A DNA stretch of 64,000 bases from Tenericutes bacterium HGW-Tenericutes-2 (GTDB lineage: Bacteria > Bacillota_I > Bacilli_A > Acholeplasmatales > Acholeplasmataceae): NCBI GenBank assembly GCA_002839095.1, contig PGXL01000004.1, positions 1-64,000 on the forward strand, given 5' to 3'. Below the pieces are notes generated by a model. The model did not search any database. It saw nothing but the letters and a program-made list of their open reading frames with translations, and had not been told where the DNA came from. Made by a program: the position numbers and the translations under genes. Positions 23,451 to 40,039 of this stretch are shown one piece after another. How positions within the stretch are numbered: position 1 is the first letter of the stretch; every line of letters starts with the position of its first letter.

Positions 23451-23564
23451 ATATAAAAAACTAAAAAAACATCAATTATTAAACACAATTGAGAATATAA
23501 CTTGTTATTTATAACAAAGCGTACTAAAATAGATATGCACCTTAAAATTAGAAAGAGGAATTTC

Positions 23565-25325
23565 ATGAAAAAACTACTATTTATTATCAGTATAATGCTC
23601 TTCTCATTTACACTTTTTTCTTGTACTGAAAGCGCAAATTACTCGATTGATCGCGTACTAGATCGCGTCGATGTTATTTATGCAGAGGGAGATAGTGTAT
23701 TCTCTGTTACCAAGCATGTTACATTACCTAGTCAAACAGATTTAAACAAGTCTGCCACTTTAACTTGGACATCAGACACACCAGATATTTTAGATGAGTT
23801 TGGAACGGTCAATAGACCAAATGAAACCACTGAAGTCATTCTTACACTTAAAGTGACATTGAATGGTGAAACCAGAGAAAAAAACATTTATATAATGGTT
23901 ATCGGTAGATACCAATTTTATGATGTCTTATTTGAGGTTGATGGAGCTAGCTATGGATCAATCAAAGTCAAAGAAGGTGATTTAGTTGAACCAATAGAGG
24001 ATCCAGTTCTTGAAGGTTTTAGCTTTAAAGGTTGGTTCACTTTAGAAGATAACGAAACTCCTTTTAATTTTAGTACTCCAATTACAGATAACATTAAACT
24101 AATCGCTAAGCTAGATGTATTAGTATTAGCTGATTACAGTATCGAGTATTATTATCAAAATATTGTTGATGATGCATATACACTCACAGCAACTGAAGAG
24201 TTTAATGGCGAAGTCGGATCACAAGTAAACGCAACCAAAGTTATTGAAGGCTTTTCAATAGATTCTGAGCAAAGCATTTTAGCAGGAGTTATCTTGGCAG
24301 ATGATTCACTCGTGCTTAAGGTTTATTTAGAAAGAAATACATACAGTATTACATTTATTTCTGAGGGAGTAGAACTTTCCTCTAATCCATATAAATATGG
24401 TTTTACATTAAATGAAAACACAGAGCCTCAAAAAGATGGCCATGTTCTAGTTGGTTGGGCAACCACACCAAGCGGAACAACACCTTATATATTCCCGTAC
24501 ATCGTATCAAATGACCTAACATTTTACGCTATTTGGAGACTTGATGATGGATATACATATGAAGGCTATTATGATGGTGCAGATGGATTATCCGGTATTG
24601 ATTTAAGAACATTCCTAAGAATGAGAGTAAACAACGGCAAAACACTCGTTGATTATGGTACTGCTAGATATGTCTTAGATGATACAGACCGTGATCCAAA
24701 TAACGCTAACAATTTAATTCTTGTATATCTAGGAACTTCAGTTTCTGGAGTTTGGGATGGCGGTAGTACTTGGAATAGAGAACACGTTTGGCCACAATCC
24801 CTACTAGGGGTCGCTGCAGTCAATAATGTAGCAAACGCAGCTTCTGACCTTCAAAACCTAAAGCCTGCAAATCCTGCAGAAAACTCAAGTAGAAGTAATA
24901 AGTATTTTGATAATGTAACCAATGCACATACATACAATCCTAGAGATGCTGTCAAGGGAGATGTCGCGAGAATTTTAATGTATATGGATCTTGCATATAG
25001 CAATCTAAATCTTGTGAACACATATCCAGCAACCTATCAAATGGGTAAATTAGATGTATTATTACAATGGCATCTACAAGATCCAGTAGATGATTTCGAA
25101 AGAAACAGAAATGAAATTATTTTTGGATACCAAAATAATAGAAATCCATTTATTGATCATCCTGAGTTCGTAGAAAAAATATGGGGACCAATTACGCTTA
25201 CAGCATCTAATAACGAGACATTCACAATTGAATTGGATTTCCCTAGTATGTTTGAAACAATTGAAATCATAAGTTATGATATACTTTATATAGATTTTAA
25301 AAAGGAATCAAAATATCTAGTATAG
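23565..25325 (+). CDS. lipoprotein with Ig-like and InlB-type repeats and an endonuclease I domain
   Basis: 586 residues. The ATG at 23565 has AGAGGAA upstream and begins a lipoprotein signal peptide, MKKLLFIISIMLFSFTLFSC, whose lipobox Cys is residue 20, so the protein is anchored outside the membrane. An Ig-like domain (about 25-115) and InlB/Listeria-Bacteroides type repeats come next (about 120-320; FKGWFTLEDNETPFNFSTPI and LVGWATTPSGTTPY mark two of them). The C-terminal half (about 335-570) is endonuclease I: WNREHVWPQS with catalytic His407, then SDLQNLKPANPAENSSRSNK and RNRNEIIFGYQNNRNPFIDH. Probable role: degrade external DNA or RNA for nucleotide scavenging. A paralogue lies at 34956-37619. 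An in-frame start at 23502 is unlikely because it buries the signal peptide. Confidence 0.9.
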   Translation: MKKLLFIISIMLFSFTLFSCTESANYSIDRVLDRVDVIYAEGDSVFSVTKHVTLPSQTDLNKSATLTWTSDTPDILDEFGTVNRPNETTEVILTLKVTLNGETREKNIYIMVIGRYQFYDVLFEVDGASYGSIKVKEGDLVEPIEDPVLEGFSFKGWFTLEDNETPFNFSTPITDNIKLIAKLDVLVLADYSIEYYYQNIVDDAYTLTATEEFNGEVGSQVNATKVIEGFSIDSEQSILAGVILADDSLVLKVYLERNTYSITFISEGVELSSNPYKYGFTLNENTEPQKDGHVLVGWATTPSGTTPYIFPYIVSNDLTFYAIWRLDDGYTYEGYYDGADGLSGIDLRTFLRMRVNNGKTLVDYGTARYVLDDTDRDPNNANNLILVYLGTSVSGVWDGGSTWNREHVWPQSLLGVAAVNNVANAASDLQNLKPANPAENSSRSNKYFDNVTNAHTYNPRDAVKGDVARILMYMDLAYSNLNLVNTYPATYQMGKLDVLLQWHLQDPVDDFERNRNEIIFGYQNNRNPFIDHPEFVEKIWGPITLTASNNETFTIELDFPSMFETIEIISYDILYIDFKKESKYLV

Positions 25326-29481: not shown

Positions 29482-31098
29482 TTATAAATCAATGGTTTGA
29501 TCAATTAAATGATCAGGAAGCTTTCGATGACTGATGATAATGCATGTCTTATCGGTAAGAGATTTAATATTCTCAAATATCTTTTTTTCAGTCTCTGGAT
29601 CCAGTGCAGAAGTAATTTCATCAAGCAGCATGATTGGTGCATTCTTCAGTAAAGCGCGAGCTATCGCTAGACGCTGAATTTGCCCCTCTGAGAGCCCTAG
29701 ACCCTTTTCTCCAAGTCTTGTATCCAGTTGATCCGGTAAAGCTTTTATATCCTCATAAAGACAGGATATTTTTAAGGCTTCTATCATTTTTTCATCACTT
29801 GATTTTTGGTATAATTCTAGGTTTTCTCTTATCGTTCCTGAGAGAATAAAGTTGCCTTGCGGCACATAGGAGAATAAATTTCTAGTTGATGCGTCACATA
29901 AAAATTTACTTCTTTTTAATGTGAAGAAAATGAATCCTTCAAGTGGCTGATATAGTCCAAGAAACAGCTTGAATAGTGTTGTTTTACCCTTGCCAGACTC
30001 ACCGTGGATATGAACAAATTCTCCAAAGTTTATTTTAACATTTAATTTATTAATGACATTATTTGAGTCGTATTTAAAGCTCAATTTTTGAATGATTAAC
30101 GTATCAAAATCAGTTTGTCTCTTTGTAATACTAGGGGTCTCTAACTCAAAGGAGTCAATCATCATTAAACGTTCTGCTGAAGCCATCATCGTGTAATATT
30201 TTGGCAGTAAATGTGAGAGTCCTGAGAACGGAGATTGAATGTGAGATACAAGTTGAATTAAAGCAGTGAGCGCTCCAAAGGTTATGACACCTTCTTTGAG
30301 TCTATACGCACCAAAAATAATTGCGAAAGCATAACCAAAACCAAAGAATATATTCATGCCAGTTGAAGCAAATATAGAAAGCTTTTGTTTTCTACGTAAA
30401 GCCTTGAAATGTGCCTCTTGAAAATTAGATAATTTGCCTGACATTAAAGACTCAGATTCAAAGGATTTAATCACTGATATATTTTCTAAGCTCTCTTGCA
30501 TAAAGGAGCGAAGATCTCCTTCAGCATCCTGAAGATGATGATGTCTTTTTTTCATTTCTTTGCTGATTAGTCTACTACCTAATAATAAGAGAATTCCAAA
30601 TCCAGCAAATAAAATAGCAAACATTGAGTCCAGTAAAAAGAGTAATACAAATGCACCTAGAAATCTTACAAGAAAGAAGATTAATTTTGGAATTACATCA
30701 AGCAATCCATCACTCACATTTTCAACATCACTGTTTAGGTAATTCATCATTTGACCAGAGTGTAGCTTCGATGTGTCCTTAAGCTTTGACTTTAGTATCT
30801 TTTGGAAAAGACGATCCTTATAATTGATATTGGTTTGACCTTGATAGTAGGTCTTTAAATAAGAGTTAACTCCCTGAGCGATGATTTGAATTAAGATGAG
30901 TGATGATAAAATAATCGCACTAACTAGAAAGAGTTGATTATTTTGGTTAATTGCACTATCAATCGTTTCCTTTGAGAAGAACGCAAAAAGTATCGCTGTT
31001 AAACTTAAGACTAAGCTTAACGACGATAGAATTAAAATTGGATATTTTAAGTGCTTATTATGTGTGCGTAACCAAGCGATTGTCAAGTTCTTTTTCAT
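29482..31098 (-). CDS. ABC exporter, fused membrane and ATPase domains
   Basis: 538 residues. About six membrane helices (20-290) are followed by an ATPase domain with Walker A GESGKGKTT, signature LSEGQ and Walker B IMLLDEI. This half-exporter type works as a homodimer and commonly exports peptides or lipids. No N-terminal C39 peptidase is present. The ATG at 31098 is chosen because AGGG lies five bases upstream and a candidate -10 (31118-31123) sits inside the longer reading that would begin at 31149. It is divergent from the HprK-like operon, with about 120 bases between starts, which suggests that it exports the product of that locus (inference). Confidence 0.85.
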   Translation of the reverse strand: MKKNLTIAWLRTHNKHLKYPILILSSLSLVLSLTAILFAFFSKETIDSAINQNNQLFLVSAIILSSLILIQIIAQGVNSYLKTYYQGQTNINYKDRLFQKILKSKLKDTSKLHSGQMMNYLNSDVENVSDGLLDVIPKLIFFLVRFLGAFVLLFLLDSMFAILFAGFGILLLLGSRLISKEMKKRHHHLQDAEGDLRSFMQESLENISVIKSFESESLMSGKLSNFQEAHFKALRRKQKLSIFASTGMNIFFGFGYAFAIIFGAYRLKEGVITFGALTALIQLVSHIQSPFSGLSHLLPKYYTMMASAERLMMIDSFELETPSITKRQTDFDTLIIQKLSFKYDSNNVINKLNVKINFGEFVHIHGESGKGKTTLFKLFLGLYQPLEGFIFFTLKRSKFLCDASTRNLFSYVPQGNFILSGTIRENLELYQKSSDEKMIEALKISCLYEDIKALPDQLDTRLGEKGLGLSEGQIQRLAIARALLKNAPIMLLDEITSALDPETEKKIFENIKSLTDKTCIIISHRKLPDHLIDQTIDL

Positions 31099-31117
31099 GT
31101 GATCCCTCATTGATTCT

Positions 31118-31126
31118 ATTTTAACA
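31118..31126 (-). promoter_or_regulatory. candidate extended -10 for the ABC exporter
   Basis: On the minus strand TGT-TAAAAT lies 20 bases before the start at 31098. No clear -35. It also argues against the longer start. Confidence 0.45.
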
Positions 31127-31178
31127 TGTTTTTTTAGATGAAGTTTCATTTATCTCAGGGTTAGAGAGTTTTTACCTA

Positions 31179-31187
31179 TGCTATAAT
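31179..31187 (+). promoter_or_regulatory. extended -10 promoter of the peptide-maturation operon
   Basis: TGC-TATAAT, 29 bases before the ATG of the HprK-like gene. Divergent from the exporter promoter, so the two transcripts could share control. Confidence 0.65.
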
Positions 31188-31216
31188 AGAGTTATCATAA
31201 AAAACATGAGGATACG

Positions 31217-32074
31217 ATGAAAAGAAAATATAATATCGCTGGTATAAAAATTGAACTCAATTATCATTATGATGAATTTCTTAAGGGTAATATCGAATCT
31301 TATTTGATAGATGAACATGAGGTTTGTGACTACGAGATTCAAGTTTTTTTGCGTGATGAAATTAAAAAGCCTGAAGAAGAAACAATTTCTAAAATGAATC
31401 CCTACGTTATCATGAAGGATGACCACCGGGTTATATATGCATTAAACGCTAATGGGGATGTTAAGGAATTGATTACACACACAAATGATTATAAGCATAC
31501 CAAAATTGAAATCAATCCAAGTCTTTTAAAGAATCCTGCTGAAGTAGAATATATTATGCTTGGTGTTACATTCTTAGAAATCGCGCTAAGATGTGGATTT
31601 CTACCCATACACGCTTCAGCTATTTTATATAGAGATGAAGCTATCTTATTTTCCGCTCCCTCTCAAACAGGAAAATCCACACATGCAAAAATATGGATGA
31701 ATACCTTTGGAGATGTTGAGCTTTTGAATGATGATAAACCGTTATTAAAGCTAGAAGATCAAAAAATTATGGTTTACAGCTCTCCATTCTCAGGTAAGAC
31801 ATCAATCAATCAAAACAAACATGCACCCTTAAAATCAATTATCTTTTTAAGACAAGGGTTAACAAATTTAGTGTCAGTAATGACTGATGAAGTGATGATT
31901 GAAAACTTGATGAGAAATATATTAAGACCTGATCGCACGGATCTGTGGGATCAAGTCTTATCTAAAATATCAAAATTAATCAATGAGATACCTATTTATC
32001 AAATAGAAGCAACTATGGACAGTGAAGCAGCAATAGCAGTACATGATATGATATATAAGGAGAATTTGAAATGA
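31217..32074 (+). CDS. HprK-like kinase domain protein of a peptide-maturation locus
   Basis: 285 residues. The C-terminal half resembles the catalytic domain of HPr kinase: LPIHASAILYRDEAIL with His132, Walker A SAPSQTGKST at 146-155, and NDDKP at 171-175. The N-terminal part (1-110) is not the usual HPr kinase domain. Proteins of this build occur beside PqqD-like and nucleotidyltransferase genes in peptide clusters; the one from the paeninodin lasso cluster phosphorylates its precursor peptide (established for that family). Overlaps the next gene by four bases. A housekeeping HprK role is less likely given the context and the unusual N-terminus. Confidence 0.8.
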   Translation: MKRKYNIAGIKIELNYHYDEFLKGNIESYLIDEHEVCDYEIQVFLRDEIKKPEEETISKMNPYVIMKDDHRVIYALNANGDVKELITHTNDYKHTKIEINPSLLKNPAEVEYIMLGVTFLEIALRCGFLPIHASAILYRDEAILFSAPSQTGKSTHAKIWMNTFGDVELLNDDKPLLKLEDQKIMVYSSPFSGKTSINQNKHAPLKSIIFLRQGLTNLVSVMTDEVMIENLMRNILRPDRTDLWDQVLSKISKLINEIPIYQIEATMDSEAAIAVHDMIYKENLK

Positions 32075-32787
32075 AGTATTTAAAAAAGGTTTTATTTGGT
32101 ATTATACTCACCATCATTTTATTAGGGGCACCCATTATTGGTAGATTAGGAGCAAATCTATTTGATTTCAGTAATCTTGATCCAGATGGTTCATTTTTAT
32201 GGATTAGTGTTCACCACATTATTCAAGCAGTTGTTATTCTAATTTTAATTTTCATTAGCATCAAGGTATTTTCACTAGATTTCAATCTTGGCCTTGGTAA
32301 TAAAGAAGTAGGCATCAAGTATTTGAAAAGATTTATGTTCTTTTTTATGATTTATACCGTTGGTGCATTTGGTTCTATGATTTTAATGGGTGGCTTTCAG
32401 CCATTCCAATATCCACTCACTGGATTAAACATCACTGGATATTTAGGCTTTCAGCTATTATTATCCGGACCATCAGAGGAGCTCATCTTTCGTGCATTCG
32501 CAATCACTATCTTCGCATTCTTAATCACAGATAAAAGATTGAATAAGCATATTAGCTATGCAAATCTGTTTGCAGCAATCATTTTCGGTCTCGCACATGT
32601 CTATATTAGATTTAGTCCATTTGAAATAAACTATACTGTATTTCAAGTTGTATACGCAACGGTCTTAGGATATTTTTATGGGGATTGCTACGAAAAATCA
32701 AAGAGTGTGATTTATCCAATGATTATGCACAGCTTTACCAATGTAGTCATGATTGGTTTAACTGTGATCCTATCATTTATCTTATAA
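32071..32787 (+). CDS. CPBP family intramembrane protease
   Basis: 238 residues with about seven membrane helices. The CPBP (Rce1-like) motifs are all visible: EE-x3-R at Glu136, Glu137 and Arg141 (SGPSEELIFRAF), His176 in FGLAHVY and His220 in MIMHSFTN. These proteases cleave in or at the membrane, and in peptide-bacteriocin loci they serve in maturation or self-immunity. Here it is the second gene of the HprK-like operon, so one of those roles is plausible. Confidence 0.88.
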   Translation: MKYLKKVLFGIILTIILLGAPIIGRLGANLFDFSNLDPDGSFLWISVHHIIQAVVILILIFISIKVFSLDFNLGLGNKEVGIKYLKRFMFFFMIYTVGAFGSMILMGGFQPFQYPLTGLNITGYLGFQLLLSGPSEELIFRAFAITIFAFLITDKRLNKHISYANLFAAIIFGLAHVYIRFSPFEINYTVFQVVYATVLGYFYGDCYEKSKSVIYPMIMHSFTNVVMIGLTVILSFIL

Positions 32788-32816
32788 TTAAAAAACTAGA
32801 TTAAGGGAGTAAGACA

Positions 32817-33080
32817 ATGAAAATTAAAGAAGGCTATATTCTAAAGAATGTATCAGGTAAAAATATTGTTGTTCCAGTTGGTGAGGAAGCAGTCAATTTC
32901 AACGGGTTAATTAAATTGAATTCAAGTGGTAAAATGCTTTTTGAAGCAATGCATAGAGATGTTGAAATGATTCAATTAGTTCAACTGATGCTTGTGCATT
33001 ATGATATCGATGAGGAAACCGCTAAAAATGATGTAAATGCATTTGTAAATAAACTAAAGAGTAAAGGAATTATTGAGTGA
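32817..33080 (+). CDS. PqqD family peptide-binding protein
   Basis: 87 residues, the usual PqqD size. It starts MKIKEGYILKNVSGKNIVVPVG and has the pattern LNSSGKMLFEAM typical of the winged-helix fold. PqqD-like domains (RRE, RiPP recognition element) bind the leader of a precursor peptide and bring it to modifying enzymes. A leader-like YVKPEV motif is found in the 42-residue peptide at 34826. AAGGGAG precedes the ATG, and the TGA overlaps the next gene by four bases. Confidence 0.87.
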   Translation: MKIKEGYILKNVSGKNIVVPVGEEAVNFNGLIKLNSSGKMLFEAMHRDVEMIQLVQLMLVHYDIDEETAKNDVNAFVNKLKSKGIIE

Positions 33081-33502
33081 AAAAGGAAGTCATTGCTACA
33101 AATGATTTGATGAGTCTTGTTATAGATTCCATCAATAACAACCAAAAAGCAACCTTTAAGGTAACGGGTAGTAGCATGACCCCATTTTTTACTCATGGAA
33201 AAACATCAGTAACCATAAGAAAAAATGAATTACCATATCAAAAATATGATGTGATTTTATTCAAATATAAAGAATCCTTTAAACTACATAGAATCATTAA
33301 AATAAGTGATAAGATGATTGTTGCTAGAGGAGACGCCTTATTTGCTAAAGAGATGATTTCTGCTTATGATATCATCGGAGTCGTTGAATCCTTTGAGACG
33401 GATGGAGTTATTACATTATCAAATGATAAAAGCTATTTAAAAAGAGTTAGAAGATACCTATTATTTAAACCAATCAGTTTAAGACTTAGGAGGTTCAAAT
33501 GA
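33077..33502 (+). CDS. S24/S26-type peptidase, signal-peptidase-like
   Basis: 141 residues, no membrane helix. TGSSMTPFF holds the probable nucleophile Ser33. FKLHRIIKI with His71 and VARGDALFA at 83-91 follow the SipW/archaeal pattern, in which His replaces Lys. Members of this family often sit with PqqD-like genes and are suspected of removing peptide leaders. The nearby 42-residue peptide carries an Ala-Ser-Ala stretch, a common signal-peptidase type cut site. Starts with GTG overlapping the previous stop. Without a membrane anchor it probably acts in the cytoplasm or with a partner. Confidence 0.8.
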   Translation: MKKEVIATNDLMSLVIDSINNNQKATFKVTGSSMTPFFTHGKTSVTIRKNELPYQKYDVILFKYKESFKLHRIIKISDKMIVARGDALFAKEMISAYDIIGVVESFETDGVITLSNDKSYLKRVRRYLLFKPISLRLRRFK

Positions 33503-34677
33503 AAGAAACCATCCAAGAACTATTTAGTGCAGTGAAATGCGCACTGAAGCAAGATAAGTATATAGAACCTATTCTTAATGAGAAAGCTTTTTATATTATG
33601 TCAATGGAAAATGGACTATCAGGTATCATTTATAGTGCCATAGATAAATATAGAGTATCTGAATTATTCCATAAAAGATTAGAAAGAAACTTCTATGATT
33701 ATGTAGCTAGAGATATCAAACAAATAGAAGCGATTAACTATATTGACGGACTATTAAATGATAAAAAAATAGAGCATATATTTTTAAAGGGTAGTCGCTT
33801 GAAATCCATATATCCAGAGTCCTACATGAGAGCAATGGGAGATATTGACATTTTAGTTCATGAAACAAAAATGAAAGAAGTTCATGAGCTATTTAAGAGT
33901 CAAGATATTATTTGCACATCTAGATCGAAGCAGCATGATGTATTTGAAATGAAAAATAAGCTAGTCATTGAGATACACCCATTCTTATATAAAGACTTTA
34001 ATCCAAAGTATAAAGAATTATTTAGTGATGTATGGAAATATACAAAGCACATGAGTGATTCAAGGTATGAATTCACTCATGAGTTTGAAATCACTTATCT
34101 TTTATATCACCTAGCTAAGCATTTAGATTCAGGTGGAATTGGATTAAGAAGTGTTTTAGATATTGGTATTTATTTATCTAGATTTGAAGCGACGATGGAT
34201 GAAAAGGTGTTGATTAAGTATTTAGAGAGTGCAGATATGAAGAGATTCTATCAAAGCATGGTTGATATCAATAGACAATGCTTTGGTTTAGCATTTCAAA
34301 TGAATCTTAATAATGAATATATCATGGATAGTGATACATTAAATGAAGTGGTTCAATATCTAGCAGTATCAGGTGTTCATGGTATAGGAAGAGATTTCAA
34401 TGTCTTCCAATCAAGACTCGCTAGTGAAGAAATTAAAAATAGAAGTAAGATAGGATTTATTTTAAGATTAATCTTTCCTGATTATGAATCGATGTGTGGA
34501 ATGTATCCATACATTAGAAAAGCTAAAATATTAATTATTTTTGGTTGGATATCCAGATGGTTTAAGCTATTATTTTTAAAAACAAAGTCTAGTTTTAAGA
34601 AGATTAAATCACTAAAAGTGAAAAAGGAAGATTTAGAAAAGAGTAAAGAAATTTTTTCAAAATTAGGATTGAAATGA
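33499..34677 (+). CDS. nucleotidyltransferase family protein (PF14907 type)
   Basis: 392 residues. The nucleotidyltransferase core is clear: IFLKGSRLKSIYPESYMRAM with Gly98-Ser99, then GDIDIL with Asp115 and Asp117 as metal ligands, and IEIHPFL near 155-161. It matches the uncharacterised nucleotidyltransferases found in peptide clusters with HprK-like and PqqD-like proteins. It could attach a nucleotide or sugar to a peptide, or act on a tRNA or antibiotic; the target is unknown. The C-terminus is Lys-rich. ATGA overlap with the previous gene, and the operon terminator follows directly. Confidence 0.8.
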   Translation: MKETIQELFSAVKCALKQDKYIEPILNEKAFYIMSMENGLSGIIYSAIDKYRVSELFHKRLERNFYDYVARDIKQIEAINYIDGLLNDKKIEHIFLKGSRLKSIYPESYMRAMGDIDILVHETKMKEVHELFKSQDIICTSRSKQHDVFEMKNKLVIEIHPFLYKDFNPKYKELFSDVWKYTKHMSDSRYEFTHEFEITYLLYHLAKHLDSGGIGLRSVLDIGIYLSRFEATMDEKVLIKYLESADMKRFYQSMVDINRQCFGLAFQMNLNNEYIMDSDTLNEVVQYLAVSGVHGIGRDFNVFQSRLASEEIKNRSKIGFILRLIFPDYESMCGMYPYIRKAKILIIFGWISRWFKLLFLKTKSSFKKIKSLKVKKEDLEKSKEIFSKLGLK

Positions 34678-34682
34678 TGCTG

Positions 34683-34715
34683 AAGTGCTTCATTTTGGAA
34701 TGAAGCACTTTTTTG
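34683..34715 (+). terminator. terminator of the HprK-like operon
   Basis: A perfect 12-base stem AAGTGCTTCATT/AATGAAGCACTT with loop TTGG and then a T run. It separates the maturation genes from the peptide gene that follows. Confidence 0.95.
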
Positions 34716-34777
34716 TCGTAAAAATTTAGCACATACTTAGTATAAAACAAAAAAAGTAATAAAAAAGTAATAAATGA

Positions 34778-34786
34778 TGATAAAAT
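34778..34786 (+). promoter_or_regulatory. candidate extended -10 for the small peptide gene
   Basis: TGA-TAAAAT, 39 bases before the peptide ATG, in a very AT-rich stretch. No -35 is evident. Needed because a strong terminator lies upstream. Confidence 0.45.
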
Positions 34787-34825
34787 AAAACCAAGTATTT
34801 TTATTATTCAACACGGAGGTTTTTT

Positions 34826-34954
34826 ATGATGGAAAACAAAGCAACCTATGTAAAACCCGAAGTAGATATTATTGAATTTGTTTTTGAGGACAGCATTGCA
34901 GCAAGTGCTGATATGGGTGCTTGGTTTAACGAGACAATCTGGGGGGATGAATAA
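34826..34954 (+). CDS. 42-residue peptide, candidate RiPP-type precursor
   Basis: A short open frame with a strong CGGAGG ribosome binding site seven bases before the ATG. Residues 1-28 look like a leader: YVKPEV (8-13) matches the YxxP-x-(L/V) motif read by PqqD-like proteins, followed by an acidic, hydrophobic stretch ending SIAASAD (23-29). The last 13 residues, MGAWFNETIWGDE, hold two Trp and four acidic residues and no Cys or Ser, with Thr37. Ala-Ser-Ala at 26-28 is a plausible cleavage site. It lies beyond the HprK/CPBP/PqqD/S26/nucleotidyltransferase operon, and its stop is one base before the nuclease start. No lasso ring is possible by the usual rule, since no Asp or Glu sits seven to nine residues after a Gly at a likely start. 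Being a precursor is an inference. Confidence 0.6.
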   Translation: MMENKATYVKPEVDIIEFVFEDSIAASADMGAWFNETIWGDE

Positions 34955-34955
34955 G

Positions 34956-37619
34956 ATGAAAAAACTATTCACTCTACTAATTACAGTCTTTTTATTAGGA
35001 TTTGTGGCTAGCTCATTGGTCAGTGTAGAAGCAAGCACAAGTGTAAATTATACTGTAGATGGTATTTTTGATACTGGTGGTACATGGGATGGACTTTCTG
35101 GTACAGCCACTAGAGGAAACACTATCTCATTTGATATTTCAAGTAAACCAGCAGGCCATGATTTCGCATTTTGGATTATCAATGGTGTAGTTAGAAAAGA
35201 TTTACTTCCTGGTCACGAATATACTTTTACTACTAAGAATACTTTGCAAATAGTATTTACTCCAACTGATAAAGTTGCAGCTGTATTCATTGATAGTAAT
35301 GGGGCATATTTAGGTGTTAAGTATACTACAGGTGGTGCTGTTGTTGATACGGGGCTTGCAAACACACCCGCAAATAGACCTGGTTTTGTAGTTAGTTCAA
35401 CAACGAAATGGACTTCTATTTCTGGTTCAGCATCTATTAATGATGTGCAGGAAAATTCAGTATTTGTGCTAACTTATGAAGCAGATGATACTCCGCTTAG
35501 TGATGTCACACTGAACGTTGTGAACGGAACTGCTTCAGTAGAAAATCCCGTGCCATTTAATTCCTTAGTTACAGTAACTGCAAACACAGCTCCTGATGGA
35601 CAAGTTTTTGCTGGCTGGGAAGAAAATGGGATTCTTGTCAGTAACAACCCAGTTTATGTTTTTTCTGCATTAACAGGTAGATCACTAGAAGCAAAGTATG
35701 CTACTTTATTTCAAGCGGAACCATTGGTAAGTATTTTAGAAGGCGTTGAATATCGTGAAGGTTATATATCACTCATTGGCCAATTTGATATTCCAAGCGG
35801 TTATACACTTTTAGAATACGGGTTTTTTATTATCAAATTATTATGTTGAAAGTCTAGCTTTAAACAACCCATCAGATGTTATTGTTGCTCAATCTAACAA
35901 TTATCAATCCTCAACTAAAGAGTATGTGACTAGTTTTAGCAACACGTTAAATATAATAAGCTCAAGAGCATATATGATTATTGAGAATGATAGTACTTCC
36001 GAACAAATTGTGGTATATAGTGAAAAATCAAATCACGTATCTCAAGGATTGATGATTTATTCAATATATGGTCATGGAGGAAATACTGGTGCAGTATATA
36101 ATAGAGATTATGTAGTACTGTGGAATGGAAGCAATTCACCTATTGATTTAAGTACTTATACTATTCAGTATGCAGGTGCAACTGGTACAAGCTGGGGTAG
36201 ATTTATCTTAAGTGAAACAATTCCATCAAAAGGTTTTATCTTGCTTAAACTTGCGACTGGAACAAGTGGAGGGGTGGATTTACCTTCTTATCCATTAAGT
36301 TTGACAAACGCATCACCAAATATTGCTGGTTCAGCAGGTAAACTTGCATTGATGAGTACAACAAATTTAATTACTTCGGGCATTTCGAATCCTATAGGCC
36401 ATGTAACATTTGGCCAATATGTAGTTGATTTTGTTGGATTTGGTACCGCAAATGCATTTGAAAATCAAGTTGCTCCGTCACTTAACAACGCCTCTATCAG
36501 ACGTGTTAAGTTGCTAGATACTAATAACAATTTTGCCGACTTCCAACAAGCAACAGCATCCGAAGGACTAGATATTCTTTTCCCGTAATTAACCCCACTG
36601 AAGACACCACAGCCCCAGAAATAACACCTCTGCTAGAGGTGTCTTCTTTCTCAGTAGGGGACCCAGAACCATCATTGGGCTGTACAGCGATCGATGACGT
36701 CGATGGACCTATTACATGCCAAACCTTTGGTACTATCGATACATCTACAGCTGGAAGTTATGTCGTTACATATTATGCAATCGATTCATCAGATAATGAA
36801 ACAACAATTGCTATTACTTATACCGTAATTGATCCAGAAAATCCTGATAATGAAGTAGAACTAACTGCATATTATTCATCTGCAACTGGACTCACTGGAA
36901 ATGATCTTCTTTTAAGTTTGCGTTCAATTATTAACACAGGATTAATTAGGGTCTCCTATGGTGATGCGAGATACATCTTAAATATAACCGATCAAGATCC
37001 TTTAAATTCAAATAATGTAATACTAGTTTACTTAGGAACTTCTGTATCTGGCACTTGGGATGTTGGAGTAACTTGGAATAGAGAACACGTATGGCCACAA
37101 TCCTTAATGATGACAACCACACTCACTAATACATCTAAAAACATTGGATCTGACCTACACAATCTTAAACCAGCTAACCCATCCGAAAATTCAAGTAGGG
37201 GTAATAAATACTACGACTATTTTACAACTACAAGTTCTTATGCCCCTAGAGAAGAAGTTAGAGGAGATCTAGCTAGAATACTCTTTTACATGATTGTGAT
37301 GTATGACTATCTTGAACTCATTAATACCACACCAACGTTATATAAGATGGCTATGTTAAATACATTATTGCAGTGGCATATTGATGATCCAGTGGATGAT
37401 TTTGAAAGAAATAGAAACGATGTCATCTATGATTATCAAAAAAATAGAAATCCGTTTATTGATTATCCGGATTTTGTTGAAAAGATTTTTGGACCAGTTC
37501 CACTATCAAATGATCAACAATTTTACATGCTTCAATATGATTCAGATTTTACAGCAATAACGGTTAATTATGAAGTGGATTTTAGTTCAATAAAGAAAAA
37601 AGAGGCATTAACAATATGA
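34956..37619 (+). pseudogene. secreted endonuclease I with lamin-tail and Ig-like domains, two frameshifts
   Basis: One gene of about 887 codons is split into three frames. The start at 34956 (after GGGGGG) gives a Sec signal peptide, MKKLFTLLITVFLLGFVASS with likely cleavage after VEA. InlB-like repeats come first. At the T6 run 35823-35828 one extra base shifts the frame: removing a T restores EYGFLLSNYYVESLALNN. The middle part (to 36588) carries a lamin-tail-like domain (YVVLWNGSNSPIDLSTYTI). At the T run near 36579-36581 one base is missing: adding a T restores DILFPVINPTEDTTAPE. An Ig-like domain and the endonuclease I domain follow (WNREHVWPQS, His codon 37086; SDLHNLKPANPSENSSRGNK). 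All domains are otherwise intact, so sequence error, slippage-based phase variation or early decay are all possible. Confidence 0.8.
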
Positions 37620-38227
37620 GAAAACTGCTAATTATATCCATATTATTACTTACATTATCAGCTTGCAAAACAACCGAACCTTTTGTCTTTTCGGACGCAT
37701 ATTTTAACTATTCTATTCACTCTGACTTTGATTTAGTCATTCAAGATTTACCAGAAAGCATAGAGGTGACTTCACTAAAAGTTAATAATGTCGATTTAGA
37801 TTTATCGAATGTCATTCATGATAAAAATGGACTTAAACTAAAATCATCATATATTAAATCCTTAAGTGTTGGAGAATACCTTTATAATGTCATTACTGCA
37901 CAAGGGAGCTTCGTCTTAAATCTAAATGTTATTGATACCTCAAGACCTTATATGATATCAAAAAGTACAATTGAATCAGATTTTACTTCCAATCATACTT
38001 TCACATTTGAGTTGTTTGGTGGGGAAATAAAATCAGTTTCAGGCAATAACATTAAAACAAGTGATTATTCAATTTCAGGAAACCAGCTGACAATCAAAAA
38101 AGGATTTATTGAAAATGCATATAGCAACAATGAATCTATGGAATCCTTAATATTAGGATATACTCTTGAAGTTGGAACTCACACGGTTATTGGATATATA
38201 TTTATCAGTAAAAAAATCAACACATAA
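37616..38227 (+). CDS. small lipoprotein of unknown function
   Basis: 203 residues. The signal peptide MRKLLIISILLLTLSAC has its lipobox Cys at 17, so the protein should be anchored on the outer side of the membrane. The rest is beta-rich with no recognised domain. Its ATG overlaps the nuclease TGA (ATGA), so it belongs to the same transcript as the peptide and nuclease and may act with the nuclease (inference). Confidence 0.8.
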   Translation: MRKLLIISILLLTLSACKTTEPFVFSDAYFNYSIHSDFDLVIQDLPESIEVTSLKVNNVDLDLSNVIHDKNGLKLKSSYIKSLSVGEYLYNVITAQGSFVLNLNVIDTSRPYMISKSTIESDFTSNHTFTFELFGGEIKSVSGNNIKTSDYSISGNQLTIKKGFIENAYSNNESMESLILGYTLEVGTHTVIGYIFISKKINT

Positions 38228-38249
38228 GAAAAGTTCCGAACAGTAAAAT

Positions 38250-38287
38250 GCTAGTAGATAAGAAAAAAACCTACTAGCTTTTTCTTT
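38250..38287 (+). terminator. terminator after the peptide-nuclease-lipoprotein operon
   Basis: GCTAGTAG (38250-38257) pairs with CTACTAGC (38271-38278), followed by TTTTTC. The loop is 13 bases. Confidence 0.88.
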
Positions 38288-38290
38288 TTG

Positions 38291-38319
38291 TTGTAAGGTG
38301 AGTTAAAAGATAGTATAAT
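38291..38319 (+). promoter_or_regulatory. promoter of the M3 peptidase gene
   Basis: TTGTAA (38291-38296), 17-base spacer, TATAAT (38314-38319). Confidence 0.85.
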
Positions 38320-38347
38320 TATACATAGGAAAAGAGGTAAAACAATC

Positions 38348-40039
38348 ATGAAATTCAATGAATTTAAGTATGAAAGACCTGATGTTGAAAAGGCTAAAAA
38401 GGATTTAGAAAAAGAAATAGCTTTAATCAATGCAGGCCACGATTTACAAACCGAAATCAAAGCGATTGATAATCTTTTTGCAATTTTTGACAATTTAAAC
38501 ACGATGGGAACTTTGGTATCCATCCGTAATTCAGTAGATACTACGGATGAGTTCTACGAAAAGGAACAAGAATTCTTTGATGAAAACAGACCAGTGCTTC
38601 AACAGTTCGAGCAAGAGCTATTTATGAGAGCACTCGCTTCAAAGAATAGAGTTGGATTAGAAGAAAAATATGGCAAGCTAATTTTCCTTCGTGGAGAACT
38701 TGCTCAAAAGACTTTTAAACCAGAAATCATTGGGGATCTTCAAAAGGAAAACAAGCTAACGACTGAATACGGAAAGCTTATCGCATCTGCGAAGATTGAA
38801 TTCCAGGGTGGAACCTATAACCTTTCTCAAATGGCTCCATTTATTCAAAATAAGGATAGAGAAACTAGACACCAAGCACAGCTCGCTGTCTCTAAGTTCT
38901 TCGCATCCAATGAAGAACAGTTTGACCGTATCTATGATGACATGGTTAAAATTAGACATGACATCGCTAAAAAGCTTGGCTATGAAAACTTTGTTCAACT
39001 CGGATATGATCGCTTTGGCAGAACCGATTATAATTCAGCAGATGTAAAAACCTATCGAGATCAAATCTATAAGGATATCGTTCCTCTAGTCTCTGATCTT
39101 ACAAAGCGTAAGGCGAAAAGATTAGGAATTAAAGATCCAAAGTCCTACGATTTACAACTTTCATTCTTATCGGGTAATCCAACACCTAAGGGTGATCGTG
39201 CATGGCAGGTTGAAAGAGCGAAGAAGATGTATGATGAGATGTCTAAGGAAACCTCTGAATTCTTTAACTTTATGCTAGATCGTGAATTACTAGAACTTGA
39301 TTCAAAACCAGGTAAACAAGCAGGTGGATATTGTACATACCTTCCAGATCATAAGGCACCATTTATATTTGCAAACTTCAATGGTACATCACACGATGTC
39401 GACGTATTAACCCATGAAGCAGGACATGCTTTTCAGGTTTACCAATCTAGAGATTTAATTCCTGATTACCGTTGGCCAACCATGGAAGCTGCAGAAATTC
39501 ACTCGATGAGTATGGAATTTCTAGCATGGCCATGGATTGATCAATTCTTCCTAGAAGATACTGCAAAATACAAATTTGATCATTTAGCAGGAGCTGTAAC
39601 ATTCCTTCCATATGGTGTTTTAGTCGATGACTTCCAACACCATATTTATGAAAAACCTGAAATGACTCCAAATGAGAGAAAAGAAACTTGGAGAAAGCTA
39701 GAGAAGAAGTATATGCCATTTAAGGATTATGGTGATGATGCATTCCTTGATAAGGGAACATTCTGGTTTAGACAAGGACATATCTTCCACGCACCATTCT
39801 ATTATATTGACTATACACTTGCTCAAGTTTGTGCATTCCAATATTGGATTAAGCATCAAGAAAATAGAAAAGCTGCATTAGATTCTTATCTTGCTTTATG
39901 TAAGCTTGGTGGATCAAAGAGCTTCCTAGGCTTAGTAGAATCAGCGAAGTTAGAGAACCCATTTATTGACGGTACAGTATCTAAAATTGTGAAGCCAATT
40001 CGTGCTTACCTAGATTCTGTTGACGATTCAAAGCTATAA
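38348..40039 (+). CDS. pepF: M3 family oligoendopeptidase (PepF-like)
   Basis: 563 residues, the usual length for the family. The zinc motif HEAGH is at 356-360 (DVLTHEAGHAFQVYQS), with the third ligand Glu in MEAAEIHSMSMEF downstream. The protein is cytoplasmic and cuts short peptides of about 6-18 residues. Good AGAGG site. The small membrane protein gene starts one base after its stop. Confidence 0.93.
   Translation: MKFNEFKYERPDVEKAKKDLEKEIALINAGHDLQTEIKAIDNLFAIFDNLNTMGTLVSIRNSVDTTDEFYEKEQEFFDENRPVLQQFEQELFMRALASKNRVGLEEKYGKLIFLRGELAQKTFKPEIIGDLQKENKLTTEYGKLIASAKIEFQGGTYNLSQMAPFIQNKDRETRHQAQLAVSKFFASNEEQFDRIYDDMVKIRHDIAKKLGYENFVQLGYDRFGRTDYNSADVKTYRDQIYKDIVPLVSDLTKRKAKRLGIKDPKSYDLQLSFLSGNPTPKGDRAWQVERAKKMYDEMSKETSEFFNFMLDRELLELDSKPGKQAGGYCTYLPDHKAPFIFANFNGTSHDVDVLTHEAGHAFQVYQSRDLIPDYRWPTMEAAEIHSMSMEFLAWPWIDQFFLEDTAKYKFDHLAGAVTFLPYGVLVDDFQHHIYEKPEMTPNERKETWRKLEKKYMPFKDYGDDAFLDKGTFWFRQGHIFHAPFYYIDYTLAQVCAFQYWIKHQENRKAALDSYLALCKLGGSKSFLGLVESAKLENPFIDGTVSKIVKPIRAYLDSVDDSKL

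Follow-up and report, generated by a model that had tools for sequence, protein, structure and literature searches.

The stretch of DNA analysed here, to which we refer as the window, comprises the first 64,000 nucleotides of contig PGXL01000004.1 from Tenericutes bacterium HGW-Tenericutes-2, a relative of Peloplasma (Acholeplasmatales) with a 2.3-Mb genome that is 99.9% complete. Our subject is a gene cluster of this window that probably directs the synthesis of a ribosomally synthesized and post-translationally modified peptide (RiPP), together with an adjoining gene for a secreted protein. Annotation from a list of open reading frames and from Pfam and NCBIfam profile searches confirmed the gene set, and the positions of its members, given in a preliminary description of the locus. 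A gene for an MsbA-like ATP-binding cassette (ABC) exporter (29482–31149, minus strand; PF00664 and PF00005) is oriented divergently from a series of plus-strand genes that overlap or nearly touch each other, as had been noted. These encode an HprK-like peptide kinase (31217–32074), a CPBP/Rce1-like membrane protease (32071–32787; E = 6e-15), a PqqD-like RiPP recognition element (RRE; 32817–33080; PqqD, E = 7.5e-13), a leader peptidase resembling archaeal-type signal peptidases (S24/S26; 33077–33502; TIGR02228) and a PF14907 nucleotidyltransferase-like protein (33499–34677; E = 2e-42) with a GDID motif. They are followed by the gene for a small peptide, the putative precursor MENKATYVKPEVDIIEFVFEDSIAASADMGAWFNETIWGDE (34826–34954, plus strand), which comprises 42 amino acids when read from the first ATG and 41 when read from the second; a Shine-Dalgarno-like GGAGG sequence precedes both, and we prefer the second ATG (34829) as the start. 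The locus is also present on NZ_JASCXW010000023.1 of the cultured Peloplasma aerotolerans strain M4Ah, a cell-wall-less mollicute of the Acholeplasmatales (PMC11122141), where the precursor reads MDVKSEYVKPNVEIIEFVLEESIAESSGALWYETIWGE. In most relatives of the genus, to which G005 also belongs according to computed kinship, the order exporter, kinase, RRE, S26-type peptidase, nucleotidyltransferase and peptide is kept.

The peptide is not a chance open reading frame, because homologues (E-values down to 1e-22) exist in 32 other genomes. A search with the single sequence detected relatives in 28 of 150 genomes, and a search with a profile raised the number of peptide-bearing genomes to 33. In an alignment of 25 family members, Y7 and P10 are invariant and E13, E16, F17, I23, A24, S26 and G30 nearly so. 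The consensus reads YxxPx[V/I]E[I/V]xEFxxE[D/E]SIAxS, the Ser residue of the SIAxS element (Ser26) is present in 24 of the 25 sequences, and the C-terminal end is often IWG. The preliminary description had named, as evidence against itself, a gene set that occurs widely without a small peptide nearby; within the order we observed the opposite. The kinase is present in 30 of the 33 peptide-bearing genomes, whereas in the whole set it is found in 51 of 151 (p = 9e-15 by the hypergeometric distribution, a rough figure as related genomes are not independent of each other). In the same description the peptide gene had been placed behind the operon of enzyme genes. The peptide gene is indeed there; its membership in the enzyme operon is improbable, since a terminator-like hairpin (34682–34711, plus strand) lies between the nucleotidyltransferase gene and the peptide gene.

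The locus had been regarded as lacking a known class of RiPP synthetase, a view that no longer holds: in May 2026, Popov et al. described gene clusters for "linear polyphosphorylated peptides" (LPPs), whose core set consists of a peptidase resembling type I signal peptidases (SpI), a discrete RRE, an HprK-like kinase, an NTP transferase and an MsbA-like exporter, with no cyclase (PMC13381572). In the studied example, the lpp cluster of Paenibacillus alginolyticus DSM5050, it was demonstrated that the RRE binds the YxxP leader, that the kinase places several phosphates on core residue Ser3 of LppA, and that leader cleavage by the SpI-like peptidase depends on the RRE (PMC13381572). As the same five core enzyme types are present in the window, in the exporter (counterpart of LppD), the kinase (LppK), the RRE (LppB), the S26-type peptidase (LppS) and the PF14907 protein (LppN), we consider the locus to belong to the LPP-type RiPP clusters or to be closely related to them, with a probability of about 0.8. 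The precursor family shows the YxxPx[V/L/I] motif that serves as the leader criterion for LPPs, with Tyr and Pro invariant in the 25 aligned peptides.

Residues conserved in the RRE and in the S26-type peptidase are consistent with this assignment. The Walker A motif of the kinase (APSQTGKST, with G152-K153-S154-T155) and its NDDKP motif (N171-D172-D173-K174) are conserved as well. In the RRE, N35, D72 and F76 align in a profile match to the LppB structure 9x8z (E = 5e-4) with N33, D70 and F74, the residues of LppB that contact and fix the Tyr and Pro of the YxxP motif (PMC13381572); D72 and F76 are invariant in 22 sequences, and N35 is missing in one family of the order (f3). The same profile also matches PbaB1, TfuB1 and TbiB1. 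The S26-type peptidase, which has no membrane segment and matches TIGR02228 below the cut-off (E = 3e-7), carries Ser33, His71 and Asp86 invariantly in 24 homologues, matching the catalytic Ser-His-Asp of LppS, in which S29, H68 and D93 are required (PMC13381572); Asp86 is the probable equivalent of the LppS Asp residue, as judged from a GD motif. The nucleotidyltransferase is likewise invariant at G114-D115-x-D117 and at many other positions. In family f3 the exporter gene lies inside the operon. The CPBP protease had been counted as a member of the set; among the genomes compared only G000 and G019 carry its gene, and we therefore rejected it as a core gene and regard it as an accessory.

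Five related genomes (G094, G097, G101, G113, and G117) show no separate RRE gene and possess a kinase about 75 residues longer, whose C-terminus is RRE-like in alignments of G094, G097 and G101. Here an RRE fused to the kinase replaces the separate gene (L074, 5739–6830; L087, 5150–6244; L088, 6293–7381), an arrangement which suggests that leader binding is tied to phosphorylation.

Several observations weigh against the LPP-type assignment. A Pfam search with the kinase gave no match, and its best NCBIfam matches, ScmC (TIGR04249; E = 7e-6, 26 bits versus a cut-off of 125) and HprK_rel_A (TIGR04352; E = 0.006, 15.8 bits versus a cut-off of 200), lie far under threshold, so that the enzyme is left with no curated family match above cut-off; nor does it have a relative in the PDB by sequence, and PDB searches with the kinase and with the peptide gave nothing useful. 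The RRE profile gives actinobacterial lasso RREs better scores than LppB, and in several g11 genomes (a genus of the order) no nucleotidyltransferase is seen near the peptide. The published leader consensus, YxxPxVLxHQxIxFETxxS, describes the published sequence similarity network cluster (PMC13381572); our family shares with it only YxxPx[V/I] and a Ser in roughly the expected position. HQ and FET are missing, and the distance between Tyr and Ser is one residue longer. Moreover, the end of the peptide is conserved here, while published LPP precursors (35–200 amino acids) have variable ends (PMC13381572), and the product of the locus is a predicted one. Since the HQxIxFET part is missing, we file the locus as LPP-type and not as a proven LPP locus.

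The similarity to lasso RREs bears on a different reading, in which the locus is of the paeninodin type, its enzymes tailor a lasso peptide, and the cyclase and B2 protease are encoded elsewhere in the genome or have been lost. HprK, RRE and nucleotidyltransferase are typical paeninodin tailoring genes (PMC13381572), YxxP occurs as a motif in lasso leaders too, and it is against lasso RREs that the RRE profile scores best. However, a search of the 99.9% complete genome yielded no match to B2 (Transglut_core3, PF13471) at E = 0.1 and only two short, weak matches of the lasso cyclase type (Asn_synthase, PF00733; 25 bits over 32 profile positions and 17 bits over 65), in agreement with the earlier statement that both are missing. 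In place of B2 there is an SpI-like peptidase, and Tyr is found in 25 of 25 peptides at the position where paeninodin leaders, with their WxxP motif, carry Trp (PMC13381572). With neither cyclase nor B2 and with Tyr instead of Trp in the leader, the lasso reading is largely refuted; we reject it as highly improbable.

If the locus is of the LPP type, the published system suggests how its product might be made. The leader would be gripped at Y7-V-K-P10 by the PqqD-like RRE, whereupon the HprK-like kinase would phosphorylate a Ser just past the leader, most likely Ser26 of SIAxS. The S26-type Ser-His-Asp peptidase, with the help of the RRE, would then remove the leader near S22-I-A24. Because LppA is cleaved before Ala1 and carries phosphate on Ser3 (PMC13381572), Ser26 is the likely acceptor, and a cut between I23 and A24, which would bring it to core position 3 as in LppA, is a likely site; a cut between A24 and A25 is an alternative that would fit the small-residue rule of signal peptidases, and the exact position is at present a matter of speculation. 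The ABC protein would finally export a linear core of some 17–18 residues. These roles of the RRE, the peptidase and the exporter had been proposed in the preliminary description, and the LPP system supports them, with export itself being a proposal in the publication as well (PMC13381572).

The preliminary description had also envisaged a phosphorylated or nucleotidylated peptide. Homology makes the former likely; the latter is unsupported, as no effect of an lppN deletion could be detected in the heterologous host of the published study (PMC13381572). The nucleotidyltransferase may nevertheless add a further group to the core, a role on which we can only speculate. In its strongest form, this idea would make a nucleotidylated or otherwise nucleotidyltransferase-modified peptide the main product of the same machinery, with phosphorylation as an intermediate. 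The invariance of GDID and of many other residues gives the enzyme an active appearance, and its role was left open in the LPP study (PMC13381572). Nevertheless, we consider this variant unlikely in view of the lppN deletion, which changed nothing, and of four peptide-bearing genomes (G059, G029, G062, and G064) without a nucleotidyltransferase gene adjoining the RRE and S26 peptidase genes.

What the preliminary description had missed is the coupling of the peptide gene to the gene downstream of it. Between the stop codon of the peptide gene (34954) and the ATG (34957) of the next gene, which encodes a secreted protein, lie 2 nucleotides, and by this criterion the peptide groups with the downstream gene. 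The 5′ part of the latter (34957–35849, plus strand) encodes a signal peptide and a conserved N-terminal domain (35061–35786); its continuation (35926–36588, plus strand) ends with TAA at 36586–36588. About 240 residues after the signal peptide are common to 27 peptide-linked proteins (E-values from 1e-36 to 1e-88), and the remainder varies among InlB-type repeats, lamin-tail, Ig-like and F5/8 type C domains. A search of the order with a profile of the N-terminal domain gave 34 strong matches. The peptide directly precedes 28 of them and follows one; of the other five, one is situated at a contig edge and four lack a peptide. The novel observation is that the precursor almost always has, as its immediate downstream neighbour, a secreted protein whose N-terminal domain is conserved and B-repeat-like. 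An AlphaFold2 model of this domain is all-beta and fairly confident (pLDDT 87). Its nearest solved likeness is an InlB B-repeat (VIA-align Z 6.3, root-mean-square deviation 2.7 Å over 66 residues), a weak match; the other likenesses, Ig-like, are weak as well, and the structure search indicated no function. Pfam Flg_new_2 is found in 11 of 25 members. On the basis of the model, the domain may consist of surface-type beta modules, a likeness in fold only. The gene of the window contains an extra frame break (35850–35925) that is not present in relatives and reflects either an assembly error or a decayed copy. Beyond the partner gene, the window encodes a lipoprotein and an oligopeptidase-F-like protein (37616–40039), an arrangement shared with several members of the genus.

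Two genomes (G115 and G029) possess four or five genes each for proteins with this N-terminal domain, mostly distant from the enzyme genes; if the enzymes act on all of these pairs, they must do so in trans. This distance, and the near-overlap of peptide and partner genes in nearly all cases, could also be explained if the enzymes acted on the surface protein, or if the peptide were merely a helper of its partner, as a translational coupler or chaperone, without any RiPP product. However, the peptide carries the YxxP leader and is conserved at the level of single residues, which a coupler need not be; four of the 34 partner genes have no peptide at all, and the cluster includes an exporter; we therefore judge this explanation improbable. 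Under the LPP-type reading, precursor and surface protein are produced as a pair in a mostly wall-less order, and for this reason the core probably acts with or on the partner protein outside the cell, although such a partnership is speculative.

A second peculiarity concerns the 3′ end of the partner gene. An Ig-like and Endonuclease I (PF04231) part (36528–37619, plus strand), which has neither a start signal nor a signal peptide, lies in the −1 frame relative to the partner. The same junction occurs at 16 further loci (L064, L065, L072, L074, L082, L083, L087, L088, L095, L099, L100, L101, L247, L248, L250, and L251): in 17 of 17 cases the partner stops at TAA or TAG and the Ig-like and Endonuclease I part is open in the −1 frame, again with neither a start codon at the junction nor a signal peptide. 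In the window, the stop codon is directly followed by a conserved hairpin, CCCCACTGA...TCAGTAGGGG (36589–36663, plus strand), and a slippery TTC-CCG precedes it. Across the loci, the stop lies 0–4 nucleotides before a stem of about 10 pairs (CCCCTAC.../...GTAGGGG), the loop of which spans some 45–60 nucleotides and often holds a second hairpin. The outer stem covaries, with T-A, A-T and C-G at pair 5, A-T, C-G and G-U at pair 6, and four types at pair 7. It also overlaps the coding sequence, in which the Gly codon of the stem is GGG in 17 of 17 cases, versus 6% of the surrounding Gly codons. At 13 of the 17 loci, the last three codons include a slippery Z_ZZN codon (background 0.24, p = 8e-6; such p-values for the junction overstate independence, since some loci are close relatives), with C_CCG being the commonest.

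Given the uniform frame and a hairpin with paired changes, we reject a sequencing error as the cause. For reinitiation there is no conserved start codon near the stop. A dispersed recombination site is unlikely, because a pattern search in 14 of the junction genomes found the hairpin once per genome, at this locus only (with one extra, unrelated match in G000). As read from the sequences, the junction is a candidate for a programmed −1 frameshift. The main doubt is that C_CCG is a weak slippery codon in Escherichia coli (PMC4066793) and that four loci (L072, L088, L100, and L101) have no perfect one. If true, it would represent conserved programmed frameshifting in the gene of a nuclease that bacteria secrete, and we found no such case described in the literature open to searching.

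The nuclease raises the question of whether peptide and partner form a toxin-immunity or delivery pair, in which the peptide serves the Endonuclease I domain. The partner gene does continue into Endonuclease I at 17 loci, and peptides of family f3 adjoin Endonuclease I genes; yet a nuclease is lacking in many partners (those of G115, most of those of G029, and G103:C16), and many Endonuclease I genes of the same genomes have no peptide. Since the shared element is the N-terminal domain, we rejected the nuclease as the general partner, and we find such a pair even less probable than a helper function of the peptide. In family f3 (L254, L256, L257, and L265) the related YxxP peptide stands beside Endonuclease I genes that are in frame, which suggests that the peptide-nuclease neighbourhood may predate the frameshifted form. 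The window itself holds a further Endonuclease I gene (23493–25322) with a lipoprotein-like start, in a single frame and with neither peptide nor hairpin, and relatives with an Endonuclease I match carry one to six such nucleases. Taken together with the LPP-type assignment, each LPP-like precursor might be dedicated to its own B-repeat-like protein, with the enzymes serving several pairs in trans and the amount of surface nuclease set by the −1 frameshift; we put this forward tentatively, as a possibility to which we give somewhat less than even odds.

In a survey of named genomes we examined the best 80 loci, most of them in Clostridia, and found kinase, RRE, S26-type peptidase, ABC exporter and nucleotidyltransferase genes in many arrangements, with small YxxP peptides near some. 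Groups of kinase, S26 peptidase and RRE genes are also present in metagenome-assembled genomes labelled Bacteroidaceae, Prevotella and Prevotellaceae (L180, L204, L208, L209, and L213). LPPs have been called restricted to Bacillota (PMC13381572), and these groups would widen that range, provided that the bins are clean. At three loci (L263, 2827–6139; L244, 4817–8166; L245, 4685–5548; genomes G029, G059, and G105) a second kinase paralogue follows a different YxxP peptide that has no SIAxS element, with a secreted protein encoded between the two at L263 and L244; this is perhaps a sister system.

Comparison with known systems places the locus nearest to the LPP clusters. The likeness to InlB B-repeat proteins extends to the N-terminal domain of the partner, whose model folds into B-repeat-like modules; here, however, a conserved arrangement of about 240 residues stands beside LPP-like peptides, and the structural score is modest. 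With HPr-rel-A (TIGR04352) and with ScmC of SynChlorMet (TIGR04249) the kinase shares a remote similarity (16 and 26 bits versus cut-offs of 200 and 125). Paeninodin-type lasso clusters have the HprK-like kinase, RRE, nucleotidyltransferase and exporter in common with the locus, from which they differ by their lasso cyclase, their B2 protease, and WxxP instead of YxxP, whereas the window encodes an SpI-like leader peptidase. The lpp cluster of P. alginolyticus agrees in kinase, discrete RRE, archaeal-type SpI with Ser-His-Asp, NTP transferase, MsbA-like exporter, YxxP motif and lack of a cyclase. In contrast to it, the leader here has no HQxIxFET, the core end is conserved, a CPBP gene is added, RRE and kinase are fused in some relatives, and the precursor is coupled to a secreted surface protein, while the LPP precursor lies in a capsule locus. 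The biological role of LPPs was stated to be unknown (PMC13381572); a lineage that keeps the precursor beside one kind of secreted protein outside a capsule context may provide a first clue to it, one that points to the cell surface. What is new in the locus is a lineage-specific variant with a conserved core, a dedicated secreted partner, RRE-kinase fusions and a candidate frameshift.

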